Positions 4,008-56,088 of a stretch of 64,000 nucleotides of DNA are shown one piece after another. The translations under genes and the position numbers were made by a program. The stretch lies in assembly GCF_023101685.1 (NCBI RefSeq), contig NZ_CP082164.1, positions 1,674,001 through 1,738,000 on the forward strand, written 5' to 3'. Within the stretch, counting starts at the first letter, position 1. Every line of letters starts with the position of its first letter. Source of the DNA: Bradyrhizobium sp. 186. GTDB lineage: Bacteria; Pseudomonadota; Alphaproteobacteria; Rhizobiales; Xanthobacteraceae. The notes beneath the pieces were generated by a model. That model was not told where the DNA came from. It saw only the letters and a list, made by a program, of their open reading frames with translations, and searched no databases.

Positions 4008-4098
4008 GTCCGGACAAAGAAAACCCCTAACGCCATGGCTCTCGAAACGCGCGAGTTGTTGCGGAGCTGTATCCGGTCGGACGGATACTAGTGGTTCA

Positions 4099-4380: not shown

Positions 4381-4418
4381 CGCTGGATTCGTCCCGGCCT
4401 CCGACAAGGAGGCGAAGC

Positions 4419-5549: not shown

Positions 5550-5745
5550 TGAACCACTAGATCGTCAGGAGCGCTCTGAGCAGCGAGGTTCGAGCGATCG
5601 TTTCGGCTGATATCGGCTCTCTGAAAGACTCGTCGGCTACAACAAAACGTGGTTTGGCCACCAAGAGATATAAGTGCCAGTTTGCCGCGCGTTCCGGTCC
5701 TACATTCGACGGCGGGAAATGCGATGATCAGATCGAGGAAACGTT

Positions 5746-6252: not shown

Positions 6253-6397
6253 CCGGCAACTGTTCAAGCCTTCACCTCAGTGTTTGCGAGAGTCGCATCT
6301 CCTCGGGTGACGCCCGGCTAAAACGGGCCATTTCAGCCGGCGGGATTGTGATTCTAAATCCAACACCGCTGGGGACTTCAAGGACCCAGATTTTCAG

Positions 6398-6441
6398 CGC
6401 CGTCGGGACACTCGATTTCGTGCTCGACGGCGTATTTTTTT
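6398..6441 (+). terminator. Rho-independent terminator
   Basis: Arms CGCCGTCG and CGACGGCG pair around a 19-base loop (which can form a further GACAC/GTG pairing) and are followed, after TA, by seven T residues. It ends transcription from the SnoaL-like gene. Confidence 0.65.
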
Positions 6442-6542
6442 GATGATCGGCAGACAGGTGCCCCGAGCGGCGTCATCCGGCCGCTGGCAAGCCAAAAATT
6501 GATCCCGAGTTCCTTTAGGTCCAACCGTTGGGCTTCGACAGG

Positions 6543-6932
6543 TTAGAGCTCACCCGTGAGAAACTGGGCACGTCCCAGCCCAAATGACCAATCCCCATCG
6601 GTGTTCGTTACGAACGTCACGACAACGTCGCTCGGCGAAATGCCGCATTGATCGGCAAGCCGTTCCACCAACGAACTGTAGAATGTTTGCTTCATCACGC
6701 GGCTGCGAGGGCGAGTCGTGACTTGAAGGACAAGCATGTTGGGTGTGCGCTTGATACCAAGGCCCGTGTCCTCGATGATCATTCTAGAAGGCGGGTGCTC
6801 CCTCACGATTTGATAGCGGTCGCGATGAGGTACGTTGAATGTGTCGACCAACACCTCATGGGTCACGTCTAGTATCTTTCTGAGCTGCCGTTCCGAACGT
6901 CCCTCAACAAGATCGAAGCACAAAAGGGGCAT
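6543..6932 (-). CDS. Malonate semialdehyde decarboxylase-like tautomerase
   Basis: A 129-residue tautomerase-superfamily protein. From memory it matches malonate semialdehyde decarboxylase (MSAD) of Pseudomonas pavonaceae 170, which is also 129 residues. After removal of Met, Pro1, Asp37, Arg73 and Arg75, the residues assigned to catalysis and substrate binding in MSAD, are all present, and the end DWSFGLGRAQFLTGEL fits the family. MSAD converts malonate semialdehyde, the product of CaaD, to acetaldehyde and CO2. It lies 146 bases downstream of the semialdehyde dehydrogenase gene on the same strand, probably in one transcript. Assignment is strong because the CaaD-like subunits are in the same window. 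Confidence 0.88.
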   Translation of the reverse strand: MPLLCFDLVEGRSERQLRKILDVTHEVLVDTFNVPHRDRYQIVREHPPSRMIIEDTGLGIKRTPNMLVLQVTTRPRSRVMKQTFYSSLVERLADQCGISPSDVVVTFVTNTDGDWSFGLGRAQFLTGEL

Positions 6933-7040
6933 TATCCATTCTCCGTGTCGCTATGGGTTGTCGCTTCGTCTTCGAGAGCGCGATCGCGGCTGTAGATCGA
7001 GTATTGAAACCGACGGGCCTTCGCCGCCGTTTTTCTGGTC

Positions 7041-7067
7041 GGCCCGCTGCTGGGCAAGCAGCGGGCC
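7041..7067. other. Stable hairpin between mmsA-like and MSAD-like genes
   Basis: A perfect 11-base stem (GGCCCGCTGCT / AGCAGCGGGCC) with a 5-base loop lies just after the dehydrogenase stop on the minus strand. No T run follows on that strand, so it may reduce rather than end read-through, or protect the upstream mRNA. Confidence 0.45.
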
Positions 7068-7078
7068 GGCCGTTGCGA

Positions 7079-8578
7079 TCATGACATGGTGGGCATCACG
7101 AACTCGGCGCCGGCGCGAATGCCGGTTGGCCAGCGGCTCGTGATCGTCTTCATCCGGGTATAGAAGCGGACGCCTTCCGGGCCATGCATGTGGTGGTCGC
7201 CGAAGATCGACGCCTTCCAGCCTCCGAAGGAATGGAATGCCATCGGTACCGGGATCGGCACGTTGATGCCGACCATGCCGATCTTGATCTTGTGCGCGAA
7301 CTCCCGAGCCGCGTCGCCGTCACGCGTGAAGATCGAGGTGCCGTTGCCGAACTCGTGCTCGTTGATCATGCGCGCGGCAGTGTCGTAGTCGGCCGCACGG
7401 GCGACGGACAGCACGGGGCCAAAGATCTCTTCCTTGTAGATCTTCATGTTCGGAGTGACATGATCGAACAACGACCCGCCGATGAAGTAGCCGTCTTCGT
7501 AGCCCTGCATGTTGAAGCCGCGCCCGTCGACGAGCAGCTTGGCACCCTCTGCGACGCCGGCGTCGATATAGCCCCTGACCTTGTCCAAGTGCTGCTTCGT
7601 GACCAGCGGCCCCATTTCCGCTTCAGGATCCGTGCCAGGTCCGATCTTGAGGCTGTGGATCTTCGGCTCCAGCGCCGAGATCAGCCGGTTCGCAGTTGTC
7701 TCGCCGACCGGCACTGCGACGGAGATCGCCATGCAACGCTCACCGGCCGAGCCGAAGGCGGCGCCCATCAGGGCATCGACCGCCTGGTCCATGTCCGCGT
7801 CCGGCATGATGATCATGTGGTTCTTGGCACCGCCCAGCGCCTGGCAGCGCTTTCCAGTGCTGGCGGAGGTCTCGTAGATGTACTTTGCGATCGGCGTGGA
7901 TCCCACGAAGCTGATCGCCGAGATGTCGGGATGATGCAGCAGCGCGTCGACGGTCTCCTTGTCGCCATGGACCACCCCGAATACGCCGTCGGGCAGACCC
8001 GCTTCCTTGAGCCATTCTGCCACGATCACGGACGCCGACGGATCGCGCTCGGAGGGCTTCAGGATGAAGGTGTTGCCGCAGGCAAGAGCCACGGGAAACA
8101 TCCACATCGGCACCATGGCGGGGAAATTGAACGGGGTAATGCCGGCGACCACGCCGAGAGGCTGGCGCATCGAGTAGCTATCGACGCGCGTTCCGACGTT
8201 CTCGGTGATCTCGCCCTTCAACAGCTGCGGGGCGGCCGTCGCGAACTCGACAACTTCCATACCACGCTGAATTTCGCCGACCGCGTCGGAGTGGACCTTT
8301 CCATGCTCGGCGACGATAACGTCCGCGAGCTGGCTCGTCCGTTCCTCGAGGATTCTGAGGAAACGGTTGAGGATCCTCGCTCGTCGCAAGGGCGTCGTCG
8401 CCGCCCACCCCGGCGCGGCCTTCACGGCTGCAGCGACGGCATCCGCCACATCCGCGGCGTTCGCGATCGGCACCGATGCCGCTTGCTCACCGGTCGCAGG
8501 GTTGAAGACGAACGATGACCGCTCGTTGCGGCCAGATACGCGCTGGCCATTGATATAATGCTGAACTTGCCGAACCAC
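7079..8578 (-). CDS. mmsA: CoA-acylating (methyl)malonate-semialdehyde dehydrogenase
   Basis: A 499-residue aldehyde dehydrogenase of the MmsA type. Start chosen at the GTG at 8578 because AAGGAGG sits six bases before it; an ATG 33 bases upstream has no such site. Motifs: [15 protein letters not shown] (family-specific N-terminal loop), cofactor region [13 protein letters not shown], catalytic Cys in [11 protein letters not shown], and [11 protein letters not shown]. MmsA oxidises methylmalonate or malonate semialdehyde to propionyl- or acetyl-CoA. With the MSAD-like gene downstream and CaaD-like genes nearby, malonate semialdehyde is the likely substrate here. Confidence 0.9.
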
Positions 8579-9106
8579 GATGAACCTCCTTGCTCTTTCC
8601 ACAAGCGGCATATGAAACGTTCAAGTCTGCACATCAACGAGCACTACTGCGGATTGGTTGTGCGAAAAATAAAGTCGTCTGATCGGAGTTACATTTGCGT
8701 GGATCGTGACAAAAGGCGCGCTGAACGCCAGCGAGGCCCATTCATTGTTTCGCATTGAGGAACACTGTTTGCCGCACGGTGAGGATTTATCGGGCGGTCC
8801 AAATGGACTAATCCCGCTGTTAATTGGCGGTCGCCAAGATAGGCTGACGGCGTTGCGGATCGTTTTGACCCAATTTGAGACGTTGCCTGCGCCAAGCGCG
8901 CAATGGGCATTGGGTTCGATCGACTTCGTCTCGCGTCGCGCTGGCAGAGCACCACGTGACGCGGTGCATGAAACCTTAACTTACGAGATGGGCAAAACGA
9001 CCAAGCGCGAGTGCTCGTGCCGCATGCACGTCTGGTCCGCCCTTCCGAATCGGGCAGACCGCGCGCAGACACGTGCCGACGGGTGACAACGGTATCTCAC
9101 GAGAGC
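8579..9106. other. Divergent intergenic region
   Basis: About 530 bases between mmsA (minus) and the large regulator (plus). I see no convincing gene. It holds one palindrome at 8824-8837 and presumably the promoters of both genes. Confidence 0.5.
8824..8837. promoter_or_regulatory. Palindrome TTGGCG-GT-CGCCAA
   Basis: Perfect 6-base arms with a 2-base spacer in the divergent region between mmsA and the 9107 regulator. A candidate operator; which protein binds is unknown. Confidence 0.35.
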
Positions 9107-11944
9107 ATGACGGACGTCGTTTCCTTTGGACCATTTCGTTTGTTTGCGGCCGAAAGGCTGCTTGAGAAAGCAGACGAGCCGCTCGAGCTCGGCAGTCGCG
9201 CCCTCGATATCCTAATCATGCTGGTGGAGCGGGCCGGAGAGGTCGTTACGCATAAGGAGCTGATGTCTCGAGCCTGGCCGAACGTGACTGTGGACGAAGC
9301 CAATCTGCGCGTCCATGTCGCGGGCCTTCGCAAAGCGCTCGGAGAGGGGCGCGATGGCGCCCGCTTTATCACGAATGTTTCCGGACGGGGCTATTGTTTC
9401 GTTGCTCCGGTAACGCGATTAGCGACACAACGGCCCGCACCGCAGGTGCGGAAAGTCGTCAGCGACCGGCTTCGCCAGCTGCCGGCGCAGTTGGCTCGGA
9501 TGGTTGGACGCGACGACACCGTCCGTGCGCTATCGGCTCAACTGTTGACGCGACGCCTCGTCAGCATCGTTGGGCCTGGAGGCATGGGCAAGACGACAGT
9601 CGCGGTCTCGATCGCTCACGCGCTGATCGACGATTTCGACGGAGCCGTTTTCTTCGTCGATCTGGGAGCGTTGACCGATCCCAGTCTTGTGCCGACGGCG
9701 GTTGCCTCGGCGCTCGGATTAATGATCCAGGCTCAGGATCCACTCCTAAGTCTGCTGGCCTTTCTTGGCGATCGGAGAGCTCTCCTCCTGCTGGATAGTT
9801 GCGAACACGTGATCGAAGCAGCTGCGGCGCTTGCCGAACCGGTTGTCAGCGCCGGGCCACAGGTCCACATTTTGACAACCAGCCGAGAGGCACTACGGGT
9901 CGAAGGCGAGCACGTTCATTTACTGTATCCGCTCGACAGCCCTCTCACTGAGGCCGGCCTGACAGCTGTCGAGGCGCTTTTATTTCCGACCGTTCAGCTA
10001 TTCATGGAGCGCGCAGCTGCGAGCGGCTATCGATCGGAGTTGAGCGACTCCGACGCTCCGATCGTCGCCGGGATGTGCCGGAAGCTCGACGGAATTGCGC
10101 TCGCTATCGAACTAGCGGCCAGCCAGGTTGGCTTCTACGGGATTCGCGGAACCGCCGAGTTGTTCGACAACCGATTCAAACTGCTCTGGCTTGGTCGACG
10201 TACAGCAATGCCGCGGCATCAGACCTTAAATGCGATGCTCGACTGGAGCTACAATCTTCTGCCTGAGCGCGACAGGCTCGTTTTATGCCGATTGTCGGTC
10301 TTCATCGGGGTATTCACGCTCAGGGAAGCTCTCTCGGTCGCGGGCACGGCATCAAATGACCCTGATGTCACGGTGTCCGTCGCAAGCCTGGTGACGAAGT
10401 CGCTTGTATCGACCACCGTCATTGACGACAGAACGTACTATCGCCTGCTCGATACCACACAGGCCTTCGCCGCGGGCAAGCTTGATGAGCGTGGTGAGGC
10501 TGATGGGGTCGCGAGACGGCATGCGGTCTACTACTCCAAATATCTTGAAAATCGTGAGGTCGTGAAATCGGCCGTCCGCGGGCAAGATCTATCTGGATTT
10601 GCACAGCATGTCGGGAATGTTCGGGCGGCACTCGAGTGGGCGTTCTCCGACCACGGCGACATCGCCATCGGAGCCGAACTCGCAACCTGGGCGGCACCGC
10701 TGTTCGTAAGTCTATCGCTGCTCGACGAGTGCCGGAAATGGTGCGAGCGAGCCTTAGCCGCTCTCGGCGATACCGAGCGCAGCACCAAGACGGAGATGAT
10801 CCTCCAGGAGTTTTTGGCGTTGTCGTCAATGTTCACCAAAGGAAACGGCAGCGAAGTTCGAACAGCTATCGAGCGCGGGCTTTCGCTTGCCGAGACTTTG
10901 GTAGACAGGGATCATCAGCTGCAACTTCTTGCCGGATTGAACATATTCCTTACACGGATTGCCGATTTTCGGGGCGCTTTGGCTGTCGCGGAGCGTGGAG
11001 TCTCGATCGCCGATGCAGCCAAGGACCTCGCCGGCCTCGTCATCACAGACTGGATGTTGGGGGTATCGTATCATCTGGTGGGAAATCAGGCGGCAGCGCA
11101 ACATCATTGCGAATCTGGGATGGCCAGATCTGTCGAGCTGGGACAGAGCAATGCCAGCTTCTTCGGCTACGATCATCGTGTCCGCGCGCTTGTCGCACTT
11201 GCCCGTGCCCTATGGCTGCGCGGTTTTCCAGAGCGGGCGGTTCAAGTGGCCCGGCAGGCCATTGACGAAGCGGAGCGTCAGGATCAACCGGTCTCTGTTT
11301 GTATCGCCCTGATTTACGCGGCGCCGGTTTTCTTATGGAGCGGTAACTTCGAGCGAGCGGGGGGCTACATCGAGCGGTTGATCGCCTATGCGGGGCGCTA
11401 CTTGCTGGCACCATACCGTGCCGTCGGCATGGCGCTAAAAGGCGAGCTTGCCGTCATTCGAGGCGAGGCAGGGGCGGGCCTCCATTTGCTGCGGGACGCG
11501 CTGGAAACGCTGCATGCCGAACAGCACAAGATTCTCGTGACAGTCTTTACCGGCGCGCTGGCAGATGGTCTGCGTAAGGCCGGACAATTCGACGAGGCCT
11601 TGCTCACCATCAACGGTGCGCTTGCGCGTGCGGCCCATTGTGGGGCGACATTCGATATGCCGGAGTTGCTTCGTATTAAGGGACAGATTCTCGCCACCAT
11701 GCCAAGGCGAGATCTGGCGTCGGGCGTCGACTGCTTGATGCAGTCGATTGCCGTAGCGCGCGAGCAATCTGCCCTGGGCTGGGAGCTACGATCGGCGATG
11801 GATCTAGCTCGTTTGCTGTCGGAGAGCGGACAATACGACCAAGCCCGTGACACACTCGTCCCGGTCTATGACCGGTTCACGGAAGGGTTCGAGACGGCGG
11901 ATCTTCGGGCCGCACGATGTCTCATCGGCGATCTGGTGCAGTGA
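9107..11944 (+). CDS. Winged-helix/ATPase/TPR regulator (COG3903-like)
   Basis: About 945 residues if started at the ATG at 9107, just before the first domain; the frame extends upstream to 9011 without better sites. Domains: OmpR/PhoB-type winged helix (about 5-100, ending NVSGRGYCFVAPV), a STAND-type NTPase (Walker A GPGGMGKTT, Walker B RRALLLLDSCEHV), then a long helical TPR-like C-terminal half. Such proteins are one-piece signal-responsive transcription regulators, cytoplasmic. The two following genes share an upstream motif (12075, 12674) that it might recognise. Signal unknown. Confidence 0.85.
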   Translation: MTDVVSFGPFRLFAAERLLEKADEPLELGSRALDILIMLVERAGEVVTHKELMSRAWPNVTVDEANLRVHVAGLRKALGEGRDGARFITNVSGRGYCFVAPVTRLATQRPAPQVRKVVSDRLRQLPAQLARMVGRDDTVRALSAQLLTRRLVSIVGPGGMGKTTVAVSIAHALIDDFDGAVFFVDLGALTDPSLVPTAVASALGLMIQAQDPLLSLLAFLGDRRALLLLDSCEHVIEAAAALAEPVVSAGPQVHILTTSREALRVEGEHVHLLYPLDSPLTEAGLTAVEALLFPTVQLFMERAAASGYRSELSDSDAPIVAGMCRKLDGIALAIELAASQVGFYGIRGTAELFDNRFKLLWLGRRTAMPRHQTLNAMLDWSYNLLPERDRLVLCRLSVFIGVFTLREALSVAGTASNDPDVTVSVASLVTKSLVSTTVIDDRTYYRLLDTTQAFAAGKLDERGEADGVARRHAVYYSKYLENREVVKSAVRGQDLSGFAQHVGNVRAALEWAFSDHGDIAIGAELATWAAPLFVSLSLLDECRKWCERALAALGDTERSTKTEMILQEFLALSSMFTKGNGSEVRTAIERGLSLAETLVDRDHQLQLLAGLNIFLTRIADFRGALAVAERGVSIADAAKDLAGLVITDWMLGVSYHLVGNQAAAQHHCESGMARSVELGQSNASFFGYDHRVRALVALARALWLRGFPERAVQVARQAIDEAERQDQPVSVCIALIYAAPVFLWSGNFERAGGYIERLIAYAGRYLLAPYRAVGMALKGELAVIRGEAGAGLHLLRDALETLHAEQHKILVTVFTGALADGLRKAGQFDEALLTINGALARAAHCGATFDMPELLRIKGQILATMPRRDLASGVDCLMQSIAVAREQSALGWELRSAMDLARLLSESGQYDQARDTLVPVYDRFTEGFETADLRAARCLIGDLVQ

Positions 11945-12175: not shown

Positions 12176-12559
12176 ATGTCCGCTTCCAGCGTTCCACAAC
12201 TTCCACAGCCAGAGCTGCCATTGCTCGTGGCGGCCTGTGTTCGGGCCGTCAACGCCTACGATGCTGAGGGGTTACTGGCGCTCTTCGCGGAGGATGCGCT
12301 TGTCAACGATCAGCTTCACGAATACTGGGGGAAGCTGGCTATCCGGGAATGGGCGGACCGCGACATCATCGGCGAGAGACTGACGATGCAAGTCGTCAAG
12401 GTCGTGGAGCATTACGGCCACTTCATCGTAAGAGCCAACGTCGACGGCAACTACGACAAGCGCGGATTGCCTGATCCGCTTGTGCTTTCGTTCTATTTTT
12501 CATCTCACGGCGATCAGATCGTTCAACTCATTATTCTTCGCAATCAATTCGATATTTAA
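12176..12559 (+). CDS. NTF2/SnoaL-like protein
   Basis: A 127-residue cytoplasmic protein of the NTF2-like fold (VRAVNAYDAEGLLALFAEDALVND near the start), with no signal peptide. Proteins of this group range from small isomerases to proteins with no known activity. It follows the large regulator and has the conserved upstream motif also found before the histidine kinase at 12774, which suggests co-regulation. Function not assigned. Confidence 0.7.
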   Translation: MSASSVPQLPQPELPLLVAACVRAVNAYDAEGLLALFAEDALVNDQLHEYWGKLAIREWADRDIIGERLTMQVVKVVEHYGHFIVRANVDGNYDKRGLPDPLVLSFYFSSHGDQIVQLIILRNQFDI

Positions 12560-12673
12560 AAAGCCGCTCCAACGATTGAACCCCCGATTGGCCGGTTGTG
12601 ATGACGACTGTCGCGACCTCCATCACCAGCCGAGTGTTTGAAGGAGGCCTTCCACGCGAAGGAGCTCATTTTA

Positions 12674-12698
12674 CATTTTCTTACAACACTCAACTCGC
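12674..12698 (+). promoter_or_regulatory. Shared upstream motif, copy 2
   Basis: CATTTTCTTACAACACTCAA plus CTCGC, 76 bases before the histidine kinase start. It aligns without gaps to 12080-12104 (20 of 25 identical), and both are preceded by a T-rich run. Confidence 0.45.
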
Positions 12699-12773
12699 TT
12701 CCGCGTGGATGCTGCGCAACCCTGCGTTCTGTAGCCGAGTCATCCGAAGCCCCGAGCTGGAAGTGAGGATAAC

Positions 12774-13559
12774 ATGACTGACACAGATGAGCGGTTTGCT
12801 GTTGCTTTGGACGCAGGGCAGATCGGCATCGTGCAGCCGACCGGGCAGCCGAGGACCCTTGAATTGTCAGGTCGCGTTGAGCCCGCTAGGACCACCGATT
12901 TTCAAGCCGTGCTCCTAGCCATGGCCGGCCATGATCTTCGACAACCGTTGCAAATCATCCAGGGTTCGCACGAACTTCTCGGCCTTGGCGTCAGGACCAA
13001 GTCCGAACAACGCCTATTGCAAAGAGGGCAGTATGCGATCAATTGCCTCAATGGGCTGCTCGATGAACTGCTAGGTGCAGTCCGGATTAATGAGCATGCA
13101 ATGGAGGCGGGGCTCTTACCCGTCGCACTCGGACCGTTGTTCCAGCACGCGTGCCATGAAAACGCTGAAGCCGCGTTGCAGAAGCGGATCGAGATTCGCG
13201 TGTGCCCCACGGCTGCGTCCGTCCTGAGCAATGCAGTATTGCTTAGCGGCGTTCTTCGAAATCTCATCAGCAATGCCATAAAATACACCGAGCCCAATGG
13301 GCGGATTCTCATCGGTAGCCGCCGTTCAGGCCAAAACGTACGTATCGACGTCTGTGACACTGGCGTCGGTATCGCGGGCGAGCAACTTTCAAAGATTTTC
13401 GACGCGTTTACCCGACTTGATTCCGCGCGGTGTGACGGACTTGGCGTCGGGTTGTTCATTGTGCGCCGCGCGATTGAAGTGCTCGGGCATCGCATCGATG
13501 TCAGCTCCGTTGCCTCCCGGGGGTCGCGTTTCTCCATTTTCGCGACGCGGGCGGATTAA
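12774..13559 (+). CDS. Soluble sensor histidine kinase
   Basis: A 261-residue kinase without membrane segments or a recognisable sensor domain. H-box HDLRQPLQ (phosphorylated His near residue 51), N-box NLISNAIKYT, G1 box DVCDTGVGI, F box KIFDAF and G2 box GLGVGLFIV are all present. No response-regulator gene is adjacent, so it is an orphan in this window; input may come from a partner protein. It overlaps nothing and is followed by the GlxA-type gene on the other strand. Confidence 0.85.
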   Translation: MTDTDERFAVALDAGQIGIVQPTGQPRTLELSGRVEPARTTDFQAVLLAMAGHDLRQPLQIIQGSHELLGLGVRTKSEQRLLQRGQYAINCLNGLLDELLGAVRINEHAMEAGLLPVALGPLFQHACHENAEAALQKRIEIRVCPTAASVLSNAVLLSGVLRNLISNAIKYTEPNGRILIGSRRSGQNVRIDVCDTGVGIAGEQLSKIFDAFTRLDSARCDGLGVGLFIVRRAIEVLGHRIDVSSVASRGSRFSIFATRAD

Positions 13560-13664
13560 ATGAGCGAAATCATCGCGTCGCTCAACGAACGTCGAGCAGA
13601 TCGTCAGAACACGATTAAGCGGCGTGGCGACTGCCGAGCACGAGCCACGCCGGGCAATGCGGGC

Positions 13665-14627
13665 TCAGAGGCTGCGGCGGATTTCGCGCACACCGCGGCC
13701 GAGCCTTCGGCGCAGCAGCGCGCGCAGCGTCACGCCTTCGGCGTACCCGACCTCGGCTGCAATCTGATCGACGCTGGCATGGCCGGTTGTAAGCAGGTGA
13801 ACGGCCCGCTCGATTCGCAAATCCTGGAGGTATTCGAGCGGAGATTTGCCCAGCACGCCATGCATCCGACGCGCCAGAGTACGCTTGCTGGTGGCGAGCT
13901 CCGCGGCAGCCTGATCCAGCGAGAATCCCTCGGCCAGCCGCTGTCGTGCCCATCGTTCGAACTTCTGCACCAGTGGATCGCCGTGGACTACGTGCCCAGG
14001 TATCGCGTAGGCGGCCTGCGAGTTGCGGACGTCGGCCATCAAATACTTGCCCGTAAGGTCGGCCAGCGCAGGGTCGGCGCGTCGGATCAGGGTCAACGCC
14101 AGATCCAAATGGCCGAGTGCTGCGCCAGCGGTGACAACCATGTTGGACTGAACAATGATTTGCGACTCGTCGAGCCGCACATGCGGATATCGCTGCCGGA
14201 AAAGAGGTGCAAGCCACCAAGTGGTGGTTGCTTCTTCGCCGTCGAGCAAAGCCGCTTCCGCCAGCACGAAGGTGCCAACGCAAGCGGCCGCAGCCAGCGC
14301 ACCGCGCTCCGACCATTTACGCAACACCACACTGGCCTCGCGCACCTCGCCACTGGCCAGCATCTGCACCAGCGGTTTCGGCATGATCCGATTGATGGCT
14401 GGCATCACCACCGCATCGGGCTTCTGCGCGCGCACTGCCGAGGTGACCGGAACATTCAGGCCCTGGGCTGTTGTGACGGTCTCACGCAAACCGACCACTT
14501 TCGTCTTGAAGCGTACCGAGGAAATGCCGTGCATTTCCGCAAGCGCGTTGGCGAAGGCAAAGGCGTCGAGCACCGCGGCGAGACCCGTGTCGAGCACGTC
14601 GTTCAGAGCAAGGACATGGATGCGCAT
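13665..14627 (-). CDS. GlxA-family AraC-type transcriptional regulator
   Basis: A 320-residue regulator with an N-terminal DJ-1/PfpI-like domain (about 1-190) and a C-terminal AraC-type double helix-turn-helix (about 215-318; signature around DLRIERAVHLLTTGHASVDQIAAEVGYAE). It is divergent from the monooxygenase at 14848 across a 220-base region with several short palindromes, and probably controls that gene and the hydrolase after it. A degenerate relative is found at 59651-59793. Ligand unknown. Confidence 0.88.
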   Translation of the reverse strand: MRIHVLALNDVLDTGLAAVLDAFAFANALAEMHGISSVRFKTKVVGLRETVTTAQGLNVPVTSAVRAQKPDAVVMPAINRIMPKPLVQMLASGEVREASVVLRKWSERGALAAAACVGTFVLAEAALLDGEEATTTWWLAPLFRQRYPHVRLDESQIIVQSNMVVTAGAALGHLDLALTLIRRADPALADLTGKYLMADVRNSQAAYAIPGHVVHGDPLVQKFERWARQRLAEGFSLDQAAAELATSKRTLARRMHGVLGKSPLEYLQDLRIERAVHLLTTGHASVDQIAAEVGYAEGVTLRALLRRRLGRGVREIRRSL

Positions 14628-32657: not shown

Positions 32658-33485
32658 TTAGGCCGCCGCGCGGAGCGGAGGAAGATCGAAGTAGGCTTGA
32701 TCCGGGGTGCGGTCGTCAAGGCTCGAATGTGGTCGTTGTCCGTTGTAAAAGTCGAGATACCGGCCAATCGAATGTCGCGCCTCACTGACGGTTTCGTAGG
32801 CTCGCAGATAGACCTCCTCGTATTTGACGCTTTTCCACAGTCTCTCAACGAACACGTTGTCGCGCCAGGCTCCTTTGCCATCCATGCTGATGGCGATGCC
32901 GTTGTCGGCGAGAACGCCGGTGAAGGCCGCACCAGTGAACTGCGAGCCTTGGTCGGTGTTGAAGATGTCCGGCCTGCCGTGACGCGCGAGAGCATCCTCC
33001 AGCGTCTCGACGCAGAAGGCCGCCTCCATCGTGATCGACAGCCGCCACGACAGGACACGACGTGTCGCCCAGTCCAGCACCACGGTGAGATAGACGAAGC
33101 CCTGCGCCATTGGAATGTAGGTGATGTCCATCGCCCAGACCTGGTTCGGCCGCGTGATCTCGATGCCGCGCAGCAGATACGGATAGATCTTGTGGCCGGG
33201 TTCGGGCTTCGTGGTGCGCGGACGGCGATAGAGCGCTTCTATCCCCATCCGCCGCATGAGCGTCTTCACATGCCGGCGGCCGATCTTGCACCCTTGCAAA
33301 GCCAACAGGCCTCGCAACATACGCGAACCGGCGAAGGGATACTCCAGGTGCAGCCGATCGAGCTGCCGCATGATCTCGAGGTCGGCAGAAGAAACCGGCC
33401 GCGGCAGATAGTAGACGCTGCCGCGGCTGACCTTCAAAATCTCTGCTTGCTTGGTGATCGACAGATCGTGCTTACGGTCGATCAT
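32658..33485 (-). CDS. IS3-family transposase, catalytic part (orfB)
   Basis: 275 residues with the rve-type DDE domain: Asp in WAMDITYIP, Asp in FNTDQGSQFT and Glu in FVERLWKSVKYEE. It lies in the -1 frame relative to orfA and overlaps its stop by four bases (ATGA). Normally made as an OrfAB fusion by frameshifting at 33527-33533. Confidence 0.9.
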   Translation of the reverse strand: MIDRKHDLSITKQAEILKVSRGSVYYLPRPVSSADLEIMRQLDRLHLEYPFAGSRMLRGLLALQGCKIGRRHVKTLMRRMGIEALYRRPRTTKPEPGHKIYPYLLRGIEITRPNQVWAMDITYIPMAQGFVYLTVVLDWATRRVLSWRLSITMEAAFCVETLEDALARHGRPDIFNTDQGSQFTGAAFTGVLADNGIAISMDGKGAWRDNVFVERLWKSVKYEEVYLRAYETVSEARHSIGRYLDFYNGQRPHSSLDDRTPDQAYFDLPPLRAAA

Positions 33486-33790
33486 CGCTTTGCGCTCAGC
33501 AATCCCGCCTTGGTGAGCGCGCCTTCTAAAAAATCGTTCTCCAGCGTCAGCTCCCCGATCTTGGCGTGCAGCGACTTCACGTCGATCGCAGGCGCGGACG
33601 GCGCCGTGTTCCCCGATCCGAAAACTCCGGAAGCACCGCCCTCCAACTGGGCCTTCCAGGCCGTAATCTGATTGGGGTGGACATCAAAGTGTTCGGCCAG
33701 TTGGGCTATCGTCCGGTCGCCCTTGACGGCGGCAAGCGCCACCTTCGCCTTGAAAGCCGGTGTGTGGTTCCGGCGCGGTCGTTTGCTCAT
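33482..33790 (-). CDS. IS3-family transposase OrfA
   Basis: 102 residues: helix-turn-helix of the HTH_8-type family (HTPAFKAKVALAAVKGDRT..., FDVHPNQITAWK) and a C-terminal helical segment. Contains the T-TTT-TTA slippery sequence near its end, from which the -1 frame continues into orfB. Confidence 0.9.
   Translation of the reverse strand: MSKRPRRNHTPAFKAKVALAAVKGDRTIAQLAEHFDVHPNQITAWKAQLEGGASGVFGSGNTAPSAPAIDVKSLHAKIGELTLENDFLEGALTKAGLLSAKR
33527..33533 (-). other. Slippery heptamer for -1 frameshifting
   Basis: Read on the minus strand, T TTT TTA falls in the orfA frame as GAT TTT TTA, and the -1 frame is open from there into orfB. This is the classical X XXY YYZ pattern of IS3-family frameshifting. 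Confidence 0.7.
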
Positions 33791-33933: not shown

Positions 33934-33947
33934 TCTGGTATGCCAGA
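33934..33947. promoter_or_regulatory. Candidate GntR operator 1
   Basis: TCTGGTATGCCAGA, an imperfect palindrome of the form CTGG-N4-CCAG, ends three bases before the GntR start codon. Its position over the translation start would suit autorepression. The same arms recur at 34639 and 34680. Confidence 0.55.
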
Positions 33948-33950
33948 TTT

Positions 33951-34598
33951 ATGGACCAAACTGTAGATCTGAGCGCTCAAGCGGAGAAGACGATCCGCGA
34001 AGGTATCATCCGTGGGACATTCGGATTCGGCGAGAAGCTATCCGATCGCGTGCTCGCGTCGTCTCTAGGGATTAGCCGAACTCCGGTGCGAGAAGCTCTT
34101 GCCAGTCTCGCGCGGGAAGGACTGGTGGTGATCCGCCCCCAGAGTGGGACGTTCGTTATGGTCTTGGACGAGGAGTCCGTGCACGCCTTGTGTGAGATGC
34201 GCACGATTCTTGAGCTAGGCGCCCTTCGCATTCTTACGGATCATCCCGAGCGGCTCGCCAGTGCAGTTTCGAAACAGATTGCTGGTGGCGCGTTAGCAGT
34301 TGAGGCGAAGGACGTCGAAGAGGCCGAGCGAATGGACTCGGCGTTCCACCAGGCGTTTGTGCACGCAGCGGAAAACCCTCTCCTGGCCCAAGCATATCAA
34401 ATCATCACGCATAAGCTCGATGCCATTCGCCATCGGTTACCTCCCGACCTTGAGCGGATGCGCAGAGCGGTGGAGCAGCATCGGCGGATAGTCGATTTGA
34501 CGGTAACGGGCCGCATCGCTGAGGCGAATGAAGAGCTCACCTCGCACTTGAAGATCGTCCAGCAACTTGCCATGCGCATCGTCCGTCCGCTGAAGTGA
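33951..34598 (+). CDS. GntR-family (FCD/FadR-type) regulator
   Basis: A 215-residue GntR protein: winged helix (about 8-75, with LSDRVLASSLGISRTPVREA) and an all-helical FCD ligand-binding domain. The ATG at 33951 matches the usual N terminus; no good Shine-Dalgarno sequence precedes it, because an operator-like palindrome occupies that place. Three CTGG-N4-CCAG palindromes surround the gene, two of them before the thioredoxin reductase gene that follows. It is the likely local regulator of the 34.7-44.3 kb cluster. Confidence 0.88.
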   Translation: MDQTVDLSAQAEKTIREGIIRGTFGFGEKLSDRVLASSLGISRTPVREALASLAREGLVVIRPQSGTFVMVLDEESVHALCEMRTILELGALRILTDHPERLASAVSKQIAGGALAVEAKDVEEAERMDSAFHQAFVHAAENPLLAQAYQIITHKLDAIRHRLPPDLERMRRAVEQHRRIVDLTVTGRIAEANEELTSHLKIVQQLAMRIVRPLK

Positions 34599-34638: not shown

Positions 34639-34650
34639 CTGGAATACCAG
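34639..34650. promoter_or_regulatory. Candidate GntR operator 2
   Basis: CTGGAATACCAG, centre 41 bases (about four helical turns) before the next palindrome, in the intergenic region before the thioredoxin reductase gene. Confidence 0.55.
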
Positions 34651-34676: not shown

Positions 34677-34694
34677 AAACTGGAATTCCAGTTT
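34677..34694. promoter_or_regulatory. Candidate GntR operator 3
   Basis: AAACTGGAATTCCAGTTT is a perfect 18-base palindrome 14 bases before the thioredoxin reductase GTG. Same CTGG-N4-CCAG arms as the other two sites. Confidence 0.6.
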
Positions 34695-34708: not shown

Positions 34709-35701
34709 GTGACCAGATTCGAAACGAAGGTCCTGATCATCGGTGCGGGGCCTGCCGGCTATACGGCCGCGATTTACGCGGCTCGGGCAAATCTCAAGCC
34801 CGTGCTGGTCACAGGGATACAGCCAGGCGGCCAGCTCACCACGACAACGGGTGTTGAGAATTTTCCCGGGTTTGCCGAGGCAGTCCAAGGGCCGGAGCTC
34901 ATGGATCAAATGCGGCAGCAGGCCGAGCATGTGGGCACGGGCATCATCTACGACACCATCACTTCGGTCGACCTTTCGCGGGATCCAATCGTCGCCCAAG
35001 GCGACTCCGGCGATGTTTATCTGGCGGACACTCTGATCATCGCGACGGGCGCCCAGGCAAAATGGCTCGGTCGTCCCGGCGAAGCCGACTATTCGGGCTA
35101 CGGCATCTCGGCTTGCGCTGTTTGCGATGGATTCTTCTATCGCGACAAAGAGGTCGTCGTCATAGGAGGCGGCAACATGGCCGTCGAAGAGGCTCTCTAT
35201 CTGACCAACCACGCTTCCAAGGTAACGCTGGTTCATCGGCGCGACAGCCTCCGCGCCGAGCCGATCATGCAGGGTCGTCTCTTCGCCCACTCGAAGATCA
35301 ATGTGATGTGGAATACCGAGATCGTCGCTTTCCTCGGAAAAGATCAGCCATCGCCCCGCCTGACCGGACTCCAGCTGCGCGACAGAACAACGGGAACTGA
35401 ATCTGTGATCGCGGTCGACGGCGCGTTCGTGGCCATCGGTCATGACCCCGCGACGGCGCTCTTTCGAGGCCAGTTGGACATGACTGATGACGGCTACATC
35501 AAGGTTGCTCCGTGGTCGACGGCGACGTCGCGCAAGAACGTCTGGTCGGCGGGTGATGTGAGCGACGACCGTTACAAGCAGGCTGTCGTCACAGCTGGCA
35601 TGGGCTGCATGGCGGCGCTCGAAGCAGAAAAATATCTAGCCGATCGCGCGTCACCCGCCGCGAACCGACCGCCCGTTGGAATCTCCCGGCCGGCGGCCTA
35701 G
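34709..35701 (+). CDS. trxB: Thioredoxin reductase
   Basis: A 330-residue FAD/NADPH flavoprotein of the low-molecular-weight thioredoxin reductase type. FAD motif IGAGPAGYTAAIYAARA, redox-active CAVC (Cys136, Cys139), NADPH motif IGGGNMAVEEALYL and the C-terminal FAD segment SAGDVSDDRYKQAVVTAGMGC are all present. GTG start. Because a thioredoxin-domain protein and a CGSC protein follow in the same cluster, this is probably a pathway-specific copy and not the housekeeping enzyme. It would feed NADPH electrons into that system. Confidence 0.93.
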   Translation: MTRFETKVLIIGAGPAGYTAAIYAARANLKPVLVTGIQPGGQLTTTTGVENFPGFAEAVQGPELMDQMRQQAEHVGTGIIYDTITSVDLSRDPIVAQGDSGDVYLADTLIIATGAQAKWLGRPGEADYSGYGISACAVCDGFFYRDKEVVVIGGGNMAVEEALYLTNHASKVTLVHRRDSLRAEPIMQGRLFAHSKINVMWNTEIVAFLGKDQPSPRLTGLQLRDRTTGTESVIAVDGAFVAIGHDPATALFRGQLDMTDDGYIKVAPWSTATSRKNVWSAGDVSDDRYKQAVVTAGMGCMAALEAEKYLADRASPAANRPPVGISRPAA

Positions 35702-35766
35702 CCAGGAGACGCTTTCCTTCATCGTTAATCCGGCATTCCGTGCAAGCCCCCCAAGAGAAAGCTCAG

Positions 35767-37125
35767 ATGACGACATTGCTCCGAAGTCTCTCGAAGAATC
35801 TCACCGTGCAGGTCTTGCTGGCACTCTTGTTGGGCGCAGCACTGGGTGTGCTTTGGCCCGCTGTCGGAGTCTCGATGCAGATGTTGAGCGACATCTTCAT
35901 CAAGCTAATCAAGATGGTCATTCCGCCAATCGCGTTTCTCACGATCGTTATCGGCGTTGCGGAAGTGCGTGACTTGCGTCGGTTGGGGCGCGTGGGCGGG
36001 CAAGCGCTGATCTACTTTGAGGTAGTCTCGACGATTGCTCTGGTCGTCGGCATGATCGTTATGAACGTCCTGAAGCCGGGCGCCGGCTTCGACAAGGCCG
36101 CCGTCGGCAGCCAGGCCGTCGACATATCCAAATATAAAGCGGCTCCCGTTGGGTCTTATTTTTTCGACTTCCTGTCTGGCATCGTTCCTGACAACGCGGT
36201 GGCGGCTTTTGCGAAGGGCGATCTGCTCCAAATCGTCTTCTTCGGAGTATTGTTCGGCTGTGCGGCCGTTCTAGTCGGTGATCGAGCGAGGCCCTTTGTT
36301 TTGGTGGCCCAGTCCGCGAACGATATTCTGTTCAAGATCGTCGGGATGATCATGCGGCTCGCGCCAATCGGCGCATTCGGCGCCATGGCGTTTACCGTAG
36401 GCCGCTACGGCCTCGGATCAATCCTTGTTCTGGGCCATATGCTGGTTGCCGTCTACGCGACCTGCATCATCTTCATGTTCGTCGTGCTCGGCGCGGTTGC
36501 CCGATTGAATGGCTTCAGCTTCGTTCGCTTTCTGCGCTACATGGCCGACGAGGCCCTCATCGTCCTCGGGACCTGCTCCTCAGAAAGCGTGCTGCCGCGG
36601 CTGATGGACAAGCTTTCACAGTTGGGATGTTCACGATCGAGCGTCGGACTCGTCCTTCCGATCGGTTACTCGTTCAATGCCGATGGCACTGCGATCTACC
36701 TTTCGATGGCTGCTCTTTTTATTGCGCAGGCTTATGGGATCGAAATGACCGTATTGCAACAGATCGGACTTCTGTTGTTGCTTCTCATCACCTCCAAGGG
36801 CTCCGGCTCGGTCGCGGGATCGGGGTTTGTGGTTCTCGCAGCGACACTCTCTGCCACGCATGTGTTGCCCGTGGAGGGACTCGCGTTGCTGATTGGTATC
36901 GATCGCTTCATGTCGGAAGCCAGATCCGTGACGAACATCATCGGAAATGGCGTCGCGACCGTCGTCGTTTCAAAAATGAGCGCAGAATTCGATCCGGCGC
37001 AGGCCGATTCTGCTTATGCGCAGCGGTTTGGTGCGGGGGTGAAGTTTAACCTCAAACCCTTTGTGACTTCTGCCGACCAAGAGGTGGTCCCGGCAGCGTC
37101 GATGATATCGCCGCAGCCGGACTAA
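35767..37125 (+). CDS. Dicarboxylate/amino acid:cation symporter (DAACS family)
   Basis: About 452 residues, inner membrane, with eight main hydrophobic segments and two re-entrant hairpins typical of DctA/GltP. Signature regions: IKMVIPPIAFLTIVIGV, TCSSESVLPRLMDK (serine-rich hairpin), YSFNADGTAIYLSMAALFIAQ, and DRFMSEARSVTNIIGNGVATVVVSK. It imports a C4-dicarboxylate, amino acid or analogue with protons or sodium. Its place between trxB and the thioredoxin fusion suggests it brings in the cluster's substrate. Confidence 0.92.
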   Translation: MTTLLRSLSKNLTVQVLLALLLGAALGVLWPAVGVSMQMLSDIFIKLIKMVIPPIAFLTIVIGVAEVRDLRRLGRVGGQALIYFEVVSTIALVVGMIVMNVLKPGAGFDKAAVGSQAVDISKYKAAPVGSYFFDFLSGIVPDNAVAAFAKGDLLQIVFFGVLFGCAAVLVGDRARPFVLVAQSANDILFKIVGMIMRLAPIGAFGAMAFTVGRYGLGSILVLGHMLVAVYATCIIFMFVVLGAVARLNGFSFVRFLRYMADEALIVLGTCSSESVLPRLMDKLSQLGCSRSSVGLVLPIGYSFNADGTAIYLSMAALFIAQAYGIEMTVLQQIGLLLLLLITSKGSGSVAGSGFVVLAATLSATHVLPVEGLALLIGIDRFMSEARSVTNIIGNGVATVVVSKMSAEFDPAQADSAYAQRFGAGVKFNLKPFVTSADQEVVPAASMISPQPD

Positions 37126-37214
37126 AAAATAGCGTCGACTTTGCAATTGACCAAGGGCGGTGATCTTGCGGCAATCGCGAGCGGACACACCCCCGATCTA
37201 AGAGTAGGGAGACC

Positions 37215-38666
37215 ATGACCGTGGATATCAGCGAGCGACAGCAGGATGGTGTTTTGATCTTCGCCAAACGCGAATGCGAGACCTGCCAAATGGTCGAACC
37301 GGTATTTGGGCAGATTGCCGACAACCTACCGACCGTCATCTATACGCAGGACGATCCGACCTTTCCGTCGTGCGTCGCAGCAATTGACGATACGTCGCTC
37401 GAATCGTCTTTCTCGTTCGATATCGAAGCCGTTCCGACGCTCGTCCGCATAAGAGATGGTAAGGAGATCGCGCGAACCTACGGTTGGAATCGTCACGATT
37501 GGGAGACGATTACGGGTCTCAAAGCTCTTGGAGAGGGCTTGCCCGACATGCGGCCCGGGTGCGGCTCGAAATCACGGGAGCCGGGCGTTCACGACGCCTT
37601 GCGCGCGAAGTACGGTAAGCTTGACTACAAGTCGCGGCAGATCCGGCTCGGCGAGTGGGATGACGATATCGAAGCTTGCTTCGATCGAGGTTTCAGCGAC
37701 GGGCTGCCGGTAGTTCCACCGACCGACGTTCGCATTTTGCGCATGCTTGAAGGGACGACACGCAAGCCCGACGAGATCATCGGCGACGTTCCCCCCAATC
37801 TCTCACCCATCACCGTCGAGAAGGTCGCGATCAACGCGGTAATGGCCGGCTGCCGGCCCGAATATATGCCGGTCGTTCTGACCGCACTCGAGGCAGCGTT
37901 GGATCCGCTCTTCACGATGCACGGTCTGTTGTGCACGACGTGCTTCTCCGGCCCCATTGTCGTTGTAAATGGACCGATTGCTCGCGAGATCGGCATGAAC
38001 TCTGGCATCAATTGTCTTGGCCAGGGTAACCGCGCCAACGCAACCATCGGCCGGGCGCTTCAATTGATCATTCGCAACGTCGGGGGCGGCCGTCCGGGAG
38101 AGCTCGACCGTGCCGTGCTGGGAGGTCCTGGCAAATATACATTCTGCTTCACGGAGGATGAGTCCGATCCAACATGGATGCCGCTCTCGGTCGCGCGTGG
38201 GATCGGACGTGACAAGAATGCGGTTACGCTTTTCCAAGGTGACGGAATTCAAGGGTTCCTAGACCAGCGATCACGAACTCCCGAAGAACTCACGAAATCG
38301 CTGGCCATGTCCTTGCTCGCGGTCGGACATCCCAAGCTGTGCGAATTCACAAACGCCATGCTGGTTCTGGTGCCCGAGCACTATGCGATCTTCCGCGAAG
38401 CCGGATGGGACCGCGGACGTATCACCGAGGAGCTCCACAGGGCAATGGTACGTCCCGGAAAGGATGTGATCCAAGGCGCACATGGTGTCGGCGAAGGCAT
38501 CGACCGAAAGCGGGTCGACGAAATGGTCAACAAGTTCTGGCCTGAAGGCCTCCTGATCGTTCAGGCTGGTGGACAGGCGGGCTTGTTCTCAGCGATCTGC
38601 GCCGGTTGGACCGGTGGCCGTTTCCGGAATGAATCAAAGCCAGTCACCAGGGAGATTACCATATGA
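37215..38666 (+). CDS. Thioredoxin-domain fusion protein, uncharacterised C-terminal domain
   Basis: 483 residues. Residues 1-110 form a thioredoxin-like domain with CETC (Cys21, Cys24) and a cis-Pro segment (AVPTLVRI). Residues 140-480 form a domain I do not recognise functionally, with conserved-looking DGLPVVPPT, a second CxxC (CTTC, Cys240 and Cys243) in LLCTTCFSGPIVVVNGP, and SGINCLGQGNRANATIG. It has no signal peptide, so it is cytoplasmic. Its stop overlaps the start of the CGSC protein gene (ATGA), implying tight coupling and probably a complex. A dithiol relay from TrxB through CETC to CTTC and on to the partner is plausible but untested. Confidence 0.75.
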   Translation: MTVDISERQQDGVLIFAKRECETCQMVEPVFGQIADNLPTVIYTQDDPTFPSCVAAIDDTSLESSFSFDIEAVPTLVRIRDGKEIARTYGWNRHDWETITGLKALGEGLPDMRPGCGSKSREPGVHDALRAKYGKLDYKSRQIRLGEWDDDIEACFDRGFSDGLPVVPPTDVRILRMLEGTTRKPDEIIGDVPPNLSPITVEKVAINAVMAGCRPEYMPVVLTALEAALDPLFTMHGLLCTTCFSGPIVVVNGPIAREIGMNSGINCLGQGNRANATIGRALQLIIRNVGGGRPGELDRAVLGGPGKYTFCFTEDESDPTWMPLSVARGIGRDKNAVTLFQGDGIQGFLDQRSRTPEELTKSLAMSLLAVGHPKLCEFTNAMLVLVPEHYAIFREAGWDRGRITEELHRAMVRPGKDVIQGAHGVGEGIDRKRVDEMVNKFWPEGLLIVQAGGQAGLFSAICAGWTGGRFRNESKPVTREITI

Positions 38667-39217
38667 GATACGGAGTGAGTTTCCGCGACCCCACGGCCGA
38701 ATCGGCCTCGGCGTTGCGGGATCGTGTAGCGCCGCTCGAGACCATCAACGGTAAGACAATTGCGCTCATGGATATCGGGAAGATGCGTGGCGACGAGTTC
38801 ATCGACCGTCTCGAGCAGCTTTGCGCCGAACGCGGCATCAAGACCCTCCGATACAAGAAGCCCACGAATACCCGGGTCGCTCCTCGTGAAATGATCAAGG
38901 ACATTGCCGAAAACTGTGATGCGGTCATCATTGCGCTGTCGGATTGCGGATCGTGCACGTCATGCTCAACGCATGATTTGAATGATCTCGATAAGAAAGG
39001 CCTTGCCGGGGTTAGTGTCCTGACGACTGAATTTCGGCAGGCGTTCGAGTCCCAGAAAGCATCGATCGGTCTGGATGGTGCCGCGGTGTACGTGGCGCAT
39101 CCTCTTCAGAATAGAACCACGGCAGAACTCCATCGGTGGGCCGAAGCCGCGGTAGATGAGATTCTGCAGATGATCGCGCGAGATCAGTCCAAGACGAAAA
39201 TGCGCGAAACGGCCTAA
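38663..39217 (+). CDS. UGSC-family protein with Cys in place of Sec
   Basis: A 184-residue cytoplasmic protein with the motif CGSCTSC (Cys95, Cys98, Cys101). Selenoprotein relatives carry UGSC at this place; here the first codon is TGC. The surrounding fold looks Rossmann-like (KTIALMDIGK near 31, DAVIIALSDCGSC near 86). The family has no assigned reaction known to me. Overlap with the thioredoxin-fusion gene and the nearby trxB suggest that its thiols are re-reduced by thioredoxin, by analogy with glycine- and proline-reductase-type systems. Confidence 0.75.
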   Translation: MRYGVSFRDPTAESASALRDRVAPLETINGKTIALMDIGKMRGDEFIDRLEQLCAERGIKTLRYKKPTNTRVAPREMIKDIAENCDAVIIALSDCGSCTSCSTHDLNDLDKKGLAGVSVLTTEFRQAFESQKASIGLDGAAVYVAHPLQNRTTAELHRWAEAAVDEILQMIARDQSKTKMRETA

Positions 39218-54643: not shown

Positions 54644-55294
54644 TCAGACGACTTCGGACACGGCCTTGCGGATGGCCTTCTCGAACGCCTCCGGCGGTTG
54701 GGCTCCTGTGATTAGGTAGCGATCGTTGACCACCACGGCGGGAACGCTGCTTATCCCTGCTCGATGCCATTTCTCTTCGGTGTCGCGCACCTCGTCAGTG
54801 TAGCGCCCTGAGGTGAGCACATCGCGCGCAGCCGCGCCTTCAAGGCCAACAGATTCAGCAGCGGCGACGAGCACGCTGTGGTCACCGGGATTTTGCATGT
54901 TGGTATGGTAGGCGGCGAGCAGTGCGCGCTTCAGCTCTTCTTGCCGCCCCTCGATTCGAGCCCAGTGCAGCAGGCGGTGCGCGTCAAATGTGTTGTAGAA
55001 GCGGCTTTCGTCGGTAGTCACCATGTCGAAGCCCACTTGCGCGGCGAGGGCACGCTGGCGCTCACGGTTCGCGATCGCCTGCTCGCGCCCGACGTTGTAT
55101 TTGCGTGCCACGTTGTCGAAACGGCTCTCACCCTCCGGCGGGATCGCTGGATTGAGTTCGAATGGCTGGAAATGGATGTCAGCCGTCAATTGCCCATCAA
55201 ATCGCTTCAGGGCAACATCCAGGTTTCCTAGCCCAATTACGCACCAGGGGCATGACACATCAGATATGAAGTCGATCTTGACCGTCTTAGTCAT
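54644..55294 (-). CDS. DsbA-family (FrnE-like) oxidoreductase
   Basis: 216 residues from the ATG at 55294, where the family N terminus MTKTVKIDFISDVSCPWC begins; upstream frame has no features. Thioredoxin fold with CPWC and a helical insertion, cis-Pro region SSVPAVVVNDRYLITGAQ. No signal peptide, as in FrnE and 2-hydroxychromene-2-carboxylate-isomerase relatives. Cytoplasmic thiol oxidoreductase or glutathione-dependent isomerase; substrate unknown. Confidence 0.88.
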   Translation of the reverse strand: MTKTVKIDFISDVSCPWCVIGLGNLDVALKRFDGQLTADIHFQPFELNPAIPPEGESRFDNVARKYNVGREQAIANRERQRALAAQVGFDMVTTDESRFYNTFDAHRLLHWARIEGRQEELKRALLAAYHTNMQNPGDHSVLVAAAESVGLEGAAARDVLTSGRYTDEVRDTEEKWHRAGISSVPAVVVNDRYLITGAQPPEAFEKAIRKAVSEVV

Positions 55295-56088
55295 GGAAAG
55301 GTCGCTCGCTATTCGCTTGGTTACGTTTCGGGGATGCCACGCACCCCCGAGCTCATTAGCTAAATAGGGTGACTTAACCATCGGATGAACCGCTGCTGGC
55401 AGAAACACACTCTTCCGTAGATCGTTACACTCATGTGCGTTCGGCCGGACACATAAGCGGGTTCGGACACCGGCCGGAAGCAACAGCCACCCAAAGCCAG
55501 ACGTACTAAATTACGCTGAGGGACATGACCTTTCATTCTGGGGACGGCAAACGCGGTTCGATCAAAGAACAAGCAGTTCTCCAGGATCGCTTGTCGATCA
55601 CGTCGATAATAGGTAGTGCATGGCACTGCTGCTGCGTCCTCCCCGTCCGTAAGCGAGCAGTCGGCAAGGAGATTGCGGTTGGTTAATGCCTGGGTATGAT
55701 GGCCTCTTGTATCGTCGCCCATGATCTTGCCAAAAAGCGAGATAATGGGGCTCGCTGCCGAACGGAGATCCAGGCGCCGCGTAGATTGACATGGTCTCAT
55801 TGGCTGACGAGCGAAACACTCGAAGAAGCGGGAAAGCACGCGACTGCCAGCGCTGCGGGAGTTTGCGATCTCGGTGGTGGTAATACGGTTGTAATCTTTG
55901 CGGGCGATTTGGTTTGTCGGGCACGACTATCACCAATTTTGGTATGCATATGGTTCTGGTTCGGTTGATCTCCCGTGGAACATGTGAATGCCACGCCACG
56001 TGGCGCGCTACCCTGAATTTCGCCAGAGATCGCCGACACAGATATTTCAACCGCTTCCGCGACAGCACCCAGCATCCAGAGGAAGTCT
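55295..56088. other. Long intergenic region
   Basis: About 790 bases between divergent genes. Frames of up to about 160 codons on the minus strand (55360-55839, 55598-56068) have no domain-like sequence, no good start sites and overlap each other, so I do not call them. Possibly an old degraded gene. Confidence 0.4.

Follow-up and report, generated by a model that had tools for sequence, protein, structure and literature searches.

Glycine and D-proline reductases are described, in the available parts of two accounts, as systems in which the substrate is held on one protein, attacked by selenocysteine (Sec), and the site re-reduced by a dithiol (PMC10298544, PMC13188914). UGSC proteins are placed by a 2026 review, in its accessible part, among selenoproteins of largely uncharacterised function (PMC13188914), and have been considered redox proteins of likely thioredoxin-like fold in selenoprotein surveys, as stated in the available text of one from 2008 (PMC2398784). 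Here we examine a 64,000-nucleotide stretch of the 10.77-Mb genome of Bradyrhizobium sp. 186 (contig NZ_CP082164.1, positions 1,674,001 to 1,738,000 of the forward strand), hereafter the window, and within it a cassette of five genes encoding a GntR/FCD regulator, a thioredoxin reductase (TrxB), a DctA-type symporter, a thioredoxin domain fused to a C-terminal domain (CTD) and a UGSC protein. The host is a soil bacterium from a genus of aerobes. A literature search, from which the majority of subscription papers and every bioRxiv preprint were excluded, turned up no study of what UGSC or the CTD does. We see an even chance that the cassette forms a two-component, thioredoxin-driven GrdB-type reductase with a new substrate partner, its own regulator and a carboxylate importer. 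This reading is favoured because the five-gene set is found in four genomes, with shared palindromes, and because CTD and UGSC are paired and also joined as one-chain fusions; further reasons are the relation of UGSC to GrdB, the Sec-type codons of UGSC genes, the gene order trxB-trxA-CTD-UGSC in Arthrobacter and the presence of TctC receptors among the neighbours.

All five genes lie on the forward strand. The GntR/FCD-type regulator gene (33951..34598), the start of which was assigned by eye to the ATG behind a palindrome, scores above the cut-offs of PF00392 and PF07729. It is followed by trxB (34709..35701; TIGR01292, 374.2 bits against a cut-off of 343.45), by the gene of the DctA-type dicarboxylate symporter (35740..37125; NF002461, 555.5 bits against 513, and PF00375), whose substrate class is predicted from its family, by the gene of the 483-residue fusion (37215..38666; thioredoxin domain at about residues 1-110, CTD at about residues 150-483) and by that of the 184-residue UGSC protein in its cysteine version (38663..39217; recognised with PF24696 and alignments). 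The fusion and UGSC genes share the four bases ATGA (38663-38666), so that the UGSC start lies within the stop codon of the fusion gene. An initial annotation, made from the letters of the window, had located the last four of these reading frames and the overlap correctly and had named the TrxB and a C4-acid-type importer, both now borne out by family models; it missed the regulator upstream and its likely operators. One other TrxB above the cut-off is encoded elsewhere in the genome and scores higher (402.5 against 374.1 bits), and the cassette enzyme is therefore the second copy.

The same five genes stand together in three other genomes (G347, G435 and G143), at 57-90% identity to those of the window, with regulator and trxB in turned-round orientation in G143. 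Because TrxB, DctA, the thioredoxin-CTD fusion, UGSC and the GntR/FCD regulator recur as a set in these three genomes, the cassette is more than a chance arrangement, and the four genes that had been proposed as a system are indeed part of a real cassette. The cassette is rare: the fusion occurs in 3 of 242 genomes of the genus and any CTD relative (E 1e-30) in 8 of them. The flanks in the three genomes mostly differ from those of the window, and in their 20-kb stretches relatives of the window's flanking genes reach only 27-44% identity, a DsbA-like gene excepted. The protein encoded by the latter (window 54644-55483, reverse strand; 5421-6326 in L111, the stretch from G347) is 85% identical between the two and lies outside the cassette in both. 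The SDR, CaiB, enoyl-CoA hydratase and GMC genes downstream were considered as members of the system and rejected, as they are not kept with the cassette in the three other genomes.

Named genomes were scanned with a CTD profile seeded with ten CTDs (among them L001 and L004, reached via UGSC, and L007-L010, L006 and L014, reached via the CTD), and the best 80 of 580 loci, which come from several phyla, were kept. A UGSC gene lies within 1.5 kb of the CTD on the same strand in 75 of these 80; in three of the remaining five (L023, L029 and L089) the contig breaks off beside the CTD, and in L026 and L056 UGSC is absent although ample sequence is available on one side or both. In 398 Pseudomonadota genomes, a CTD search at E 1e-30, which could miss weaker relatives, found the domain in five, and PF24696 was present in the same five; the odds of this agreement would be 1.2e-11 if the genomes were independent, which they are not, so that the figure conveys scale only. 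The initial annotation had staked its proposal on the co-occurrence of the fusion domain with UGSC proteins, Sec-containing versions included, and this is what the counts give. Among plasmid records, 24 had a CTD match, and of the ten opened a UGSC region was detected by hidden Markov model in nine and, in the tenth (L013), by alignment only, there without the nucleophile. CTD and UGSC occur also as one-chain fusions, and a UGSC/Unknown_1 fusion was reported in 2008, according to the available part of that survey (PMC2398784). We conclude that UGSC proteins have the CTD as a regular partner, and Unknown_1 may be this domain.

The most frequent operon neighbours of the pair are TctC receptors (15 of 120 proteins scanned, taken from the output of a rough gene caller with 123 listed and three dropped before the scan), and others belong to the MmgE/PrpD, enoyl-CoA hydratase and CoA-transferase families. 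On an Arthrobacter plasmid (L009) trxB, trxA, CTD and UGSC are separate genes, whereas thioredoxin and CTD are fused in the window; a CocE-type hydrolase and a ComA-like phosphosulfolactate synthase precede the four there (3975-9815). Two Chloroflexi contigs (L062 and L068) hold three UGSC-CTD pairs within about 10-12 kb, a clustering which suggests substrate diversification. Another branch, found in Bradyrhizobium and other genomes (L116-L118, L147, L148 and L150), has UGSC-CTD in a single frame followed by TrxB; HCSTC replaces CGSC in four Bradyrhizobium frames, a stop codon stands at that place in L147, and in L117 an S15-type hydrolase gene lies ahead of the fusion.

The window's UGSC protein is well above the Pfam gathering cut-off of PF24696 (113.7 against 25 bits) and just below the NCBIfam curated cut-off of NF041046 (121.7 against 125 bits); a PDB sequence search with it returned nothing notable (best E 0.34). 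It carries the [Sec/Cys]-G-S-C motif as C95-G-S-C98-T-S-C101, the CGSCTSC given in the initial annotation, and C95 is likely the nucleophile and C98 the resolving cysteine, with C101 a further cysteine. When the 75 CTD-paired UGSC proteins are aligned, the position of C95 is an in-frame TGA in 69, Cys in five and TAG in one, a Sec-type stop codon thus standing at the nucleophile in 70 of 75; the position of C98 is Cys in 72 and that of C101 in seven. The single TAG belongs to a Blastococcus locus (L024, 9729-9731), in whose genome a tRNA-Sec-family match of 66.7 bits was given the anticodon CTA by ARAGORN and labelled tRNA-Pyl. Sec at TAG, together with a CUA tRNA-Sec and UGSC-motif selenoproteins, is known for the bacterial family of Blastococcus from the accessible part of an earlier report (PMC5330540).

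Twelve of 150 genomes match the Sec-type fusion, nine of them in fused form, and eight such loci were examined, G704 being left out as it is split over two short contigs. In all eight, selA, selB, tRNA-Sec, the thioredoxin-CTD gene and the Sec-UGSC gene lie in one stretch (for L114 and L140, Pfam was used to verify selA and selB), and in four of them the next gene encodes SelD fused to a pyridine-nucleotide oxidoreductase (Pfam-checked in L140). SelB above the cut-off is present in three of 12 genomes tested and in none of the window genome, G347, G435 and G143, which fits their cysteine version of UGSC. G513 has two UGSC matches, one with TGA and one short, and no SelB above the cut-off; it is probably disturbed and was left aside. 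Elsewhere, a tRNA-Sec adjoins CTD-UGSC on a Minwuiaceae contig (L064, 9796-9891) and selB (12437-14212) lies 3 kb from the pair on a Paracoccus plasmid (L006).

Eight proteins from genomes also holding UGSC served as GrdB reference (PF07355 was checked for one of their loci), and two PF07355 relatives with NCPVCHQ were set aside. In an hhalign comparison built on shallow alignments, the UGSC profile matched GrdB at 94% (E 1.4e-7, 98 columns) with the Sec positions aligned, against 9% for GrdE and 2.9% for thioredoxin domains. The NCBIfam GrdB and GrdF models, at E up to 1, matched 18 and 13 of 30 UGSC proteins (best 2.4e-6 and 9.1e-7, respectively). These profiles relate UGSC remotely to the selenocysteine domain of GrdB, and it is probably a stripped-down version of that domain with another partner, which makes the parallel with glycine and proline reductases, drawn in the initial annotation, stronger than could be seen at that point. 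A relationship of UGSC with thioredoxin was rejected on the low profile score, and the thioredoxin-like fold has no support in the comparison. Five full-length GrdB matches with in-frame TGA occur in one genome in which UGSC is also present (G764, that of L065), and GrdE-type genes adjoin GrdB in L175-L177, L179 and L181.

The N-terminus of the fusion matches thioredoxin models below their cut-offs (PF00085, 21.0 against 23.5 bits; TIGR01068, 23.1 against 96.8), and since CETC at 21-24 and VPT at 73-75 are present it is classed as thioredoxin-like on these motifs; a PDB sequence search with it returned thioredoxins only. C116, a cysteine of the linker within CGS or CGT, is kept in all eight Sec-type fusions and, among the 120 nearest fusions, in 115. 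The CTD, a region of about 340 residues that follows the thioredoxin domain, is covered by no Pfam or NCBIfam model, in agreement with the unassigned fused domain first described, and its PDB sequence search gave nothing notable (best E 1.3). Among the CTD residues C213, C240, C243, R280, C311 and E314 of the window's fusion, R280 and E314 are kept in all of 124 CTDs, as are D162 and G163, C213 is kept in 122 and C311 in 112, while C240 and C243 are both present in 15, all of them thioredoxin-fused. The second CxxC to which attention had been drawn therefore exists, as CTTC at 240-243, but is no family signature. As a general redox pair it was rejected, being confined to one clade, and because other Cys-type UGSC partners lack it, it is no general compensation for the loss of Sec. 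Within the thioredoxin fusions a Cys UGSC goes with CTTC and a Sec UGSC with ATTM, a match which is, on the tree, a single evolutionary contrast: thioredoxin-fused CTDs form one clade (100/100), and the Sec clade (8 rows) stands apart from the window's Cys clade (9 rows), which P0278 adjoins. A pyruvoyl site was also considered and rejected, for T241-T242 is conserved but residue 243 varies among the 124 CTDs (76 with H, 15 with C, 13 with N). In six loci (L016-L019, L021 and L025) a second, shorter CTD relative, with about 270 residues matched, follows the UGSC-CTD pair.

In the mechanism that we propose for a GrdB-type reductase, DctA would import a carboxylate, most likely a substituted C4-dicarboxylate, given that the cassette importer is of DctA type, and the CTD would bind the imported acid, with R280, E314, C213 and C311 as candidate residues. 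C95 of UGSC would attack the substituted carbon or the substituent, the substituent would be removed, and C98 would resolve the adduct to a disulfide. Electrons would then pass from NADPH through TrxB to C21/C24 of the fused thioredoxin and, perhaps via C116 and C240/C243, re-reduce the pair. The outline known for glycine and D-proline reductases is repeated here, with TrxB, thioredoxin, a UGSC nucleophile and, as likely substrate subunit, the CTD. Since the cassette is not accompanied by any other conserved catabolic gene in the four genomes, the product would probably enter central metabolism directly, for instance as succinate. At a broader level, and with a chance that we put somewhat below even, UGSC and CTD may represent a widespread oxygen-tolerant superfamily for thioredoxin-driven reductive C-X cleavage in bacteria and haloarchaea, an additional branch alongside the glycine and proline reductases in which the GrdB Sec domain would have been kept and the pyruvoyl subunit replaced by an unrelated domain.

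Several observations weigh against the reductase. No activity is known for any member of the UGSC/CTD group, and the Pfam GRDB model matched none of the 30 UGSC proteins, to which the shallowness of the alignments behind the profile comparison must be added. The CTD reached only 0.1-0.2% against the GrdB and GrdE profiles, that is, no detectable relation, ten CTDs searched at E up to 10 gave no match to PF09338 (GrdE/PrdA type), and the 124 CTDs lack a conserved cysteine of pyruvoyl type at T241-T242. TrxB lies within 5 kb of the CTD in 7 of the 80 loci, so that the reductase first called dedicated, although it is a second TrxB in its genome, is a lineage addition. Some UGSC-CTD fusions (L012, L013, P0265, P0267 and P0270) have lost the nucleophile, no transporter is kept beside the pair in the eight Sec-type loci, and the attempt to deduce the substrate from neighbour genes was given up, as these vary too widely.

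The absence of a kept importer from all eight Sec-type loci agrees with a thiol peroxidase or detoxifying reductase, in which UGSC would reduce a peroxide, disulfide, sulfoxide or other electrophile via thioredoxin and the CTD would recognise the target, the role being protective and not nutritional. Enzymes of this kind usually have Sec or Cys followed two residues on by a resolving Cys, and the surveys, in their available text, likewise treat UGSC as a redox protein with a likely thioredoxin-like fold (PMC2398784). The profile comparison, however, favours GrdB over thioredoxin, a DctA symporter belongs to the cassette, as does a GntR/FCD regulator of metabolite type, and in other loci no operon neighbour is more common than carboxylate receptors; we consider this explanation rather unlikely.

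On Vibrio and Sporomusa plasmids, UGSC-CTD frames that lack the nucleophile (L012, 7362-9047; L013, 7287-9011) have aconitase X genes nearby, an arrangement that hints at a branch without redox function. That some relatives without the UGSC nucleophile retain the fused layout, two of them in this setting, and that MmgE/PrpD, enoyl-CoA hydratase and CoA-transferase are among the operon neighbours, would accord with CTD and UGSC being a lyase, hydratase or isomerase of carboxylic acids whose activity is merely maintained or regulated by the thiols and thioredoxin. We hold this to be unlikely, since the nucleophile has a Sec-type codon in 70 of 75 proteins, which argues for a catalytic chalcogen, and a fused thioredoxin with a dedicated TrxB would be excessive for regulation alone. 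Accidental adjacency of the cassette genes, with no joint function, is highly improbable: the turned-round regulator and trxB in G143 and the absence of TrxB near most relatives would agree with it, but it is already contradicted by the co-occurrence counts. All five genes stand together in four genomes, palindromes are shared, CTD and UGSC have an identical distribution in 5 of 398 genomes, and one-chain fusions exist.

The palindrome CTGGNATNCCAG occurs at three sites in the window against 0.04 expected, all within the cassette: CTGGTATGCCAG (33935..33946) directly before the regulator gene, and CTGGAATACCAG (34639..34650) and CTGGAATTCCAG (34680..34691) before trxB. With A/T flanks, it has four sites genome-wide, three of them in the cassette, compared with none for a control pattern. 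There are five copies in the G347 stretch (L111) and four in the G435 stretch (L112), and near-variants precede the G143 genes (L113). These palindromes are likely operators of the cassette. The fourth genomic site (L154, 1501-1514) lies 12 bases 5' of a gene judged by eye to be aldehyde dehydrogenase-like and may be due to chance. Some 150 bases separate the regulator gene from the end of a two-frame insertion element on the reverse strand (32658-33790), which matches HTH_Tnp_1 and the integrase core PF00665.

The window's cassette is a compact, all-cysteine version of the system, expressible without selenium and equipped with its own reductase, importer and regulator, which brings an orphan selenoprotein within reach of a small in-vitro assay and makes its function testable. 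Should the proposed chemistry hold, reductases known from anaerobes that ferment amino acids would have a counterpart in aerobes. If the superfamily reading is true, one of the selenoprotein families most common in lakes and oceans would be accounted for, and in one alphaproteobacterial group the UGSC-CTD enzymes would be the main reason for retaining the selenocysteine machinery.

Compared with the GrdB/GrdE glycine, sarcosine and betaine reductases, the cassette is alike in that thioredoxin and TrxB would supply its electrons and in combining a small Sec/Cys part with a separate partner protein. Full-length GrdB, in contrast, has about 430 residues, whereas the 184-residue UGSC protein of the window lacks the GrdB N-terminal part and its match covers positions 326-373 of the 431 in the GrdB model; the CTD differs from GrdE in showing no relation to it, and neither GrdA nor GrdC/D is among the cassette genes, to which the search for them was confined. 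D-proline reductase (PrdA/PrdB) similarly pairs a small Sec subunit with a larger substrate subunit, and PrdB, a 26-kDa protein, is homologous to GrdB according to the available part of the review (PMC13188914). The PrdB model, nevertheless, matched only 5 of the 30 UGSC proteins (best E 0.021), the pyruvoyl subunit of proline reductase has no recognisable equivalent in the CTD, and thioredoxin is said, in the accessible text of one source, to have been ruled out as a partner of that enzyme (PMC10298544). The fluoroacetate operon of Cloacibacillus, as far as the available part of its description goes, is likewise a small and apparently laterally moved operon with GrdB-related proteins and a transporter, and with a proposed action on a substituted acid; it differs in belonging to anaerobes and in having a radical SAM protein, and that part mentions neither a thioredoxin reductase nor a thioredoxin fusion (PMC10838667). 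The window's protein is a cysteine member of the UGSC selenoprotein family surveyed in 2008, for which the available sections give no partner rule, GrdB relation or function (PMC2398784). What is new here is that a near-constant partner, the CTD, can be named for this abundant orphan selenoprotein family and that UGSC is placed with GrdB and not with thioredoxin. GrdB-type chemistry is the likely model for the cassette, from which its partner protein, its electron-supplying fusion and its hosts set it apart.

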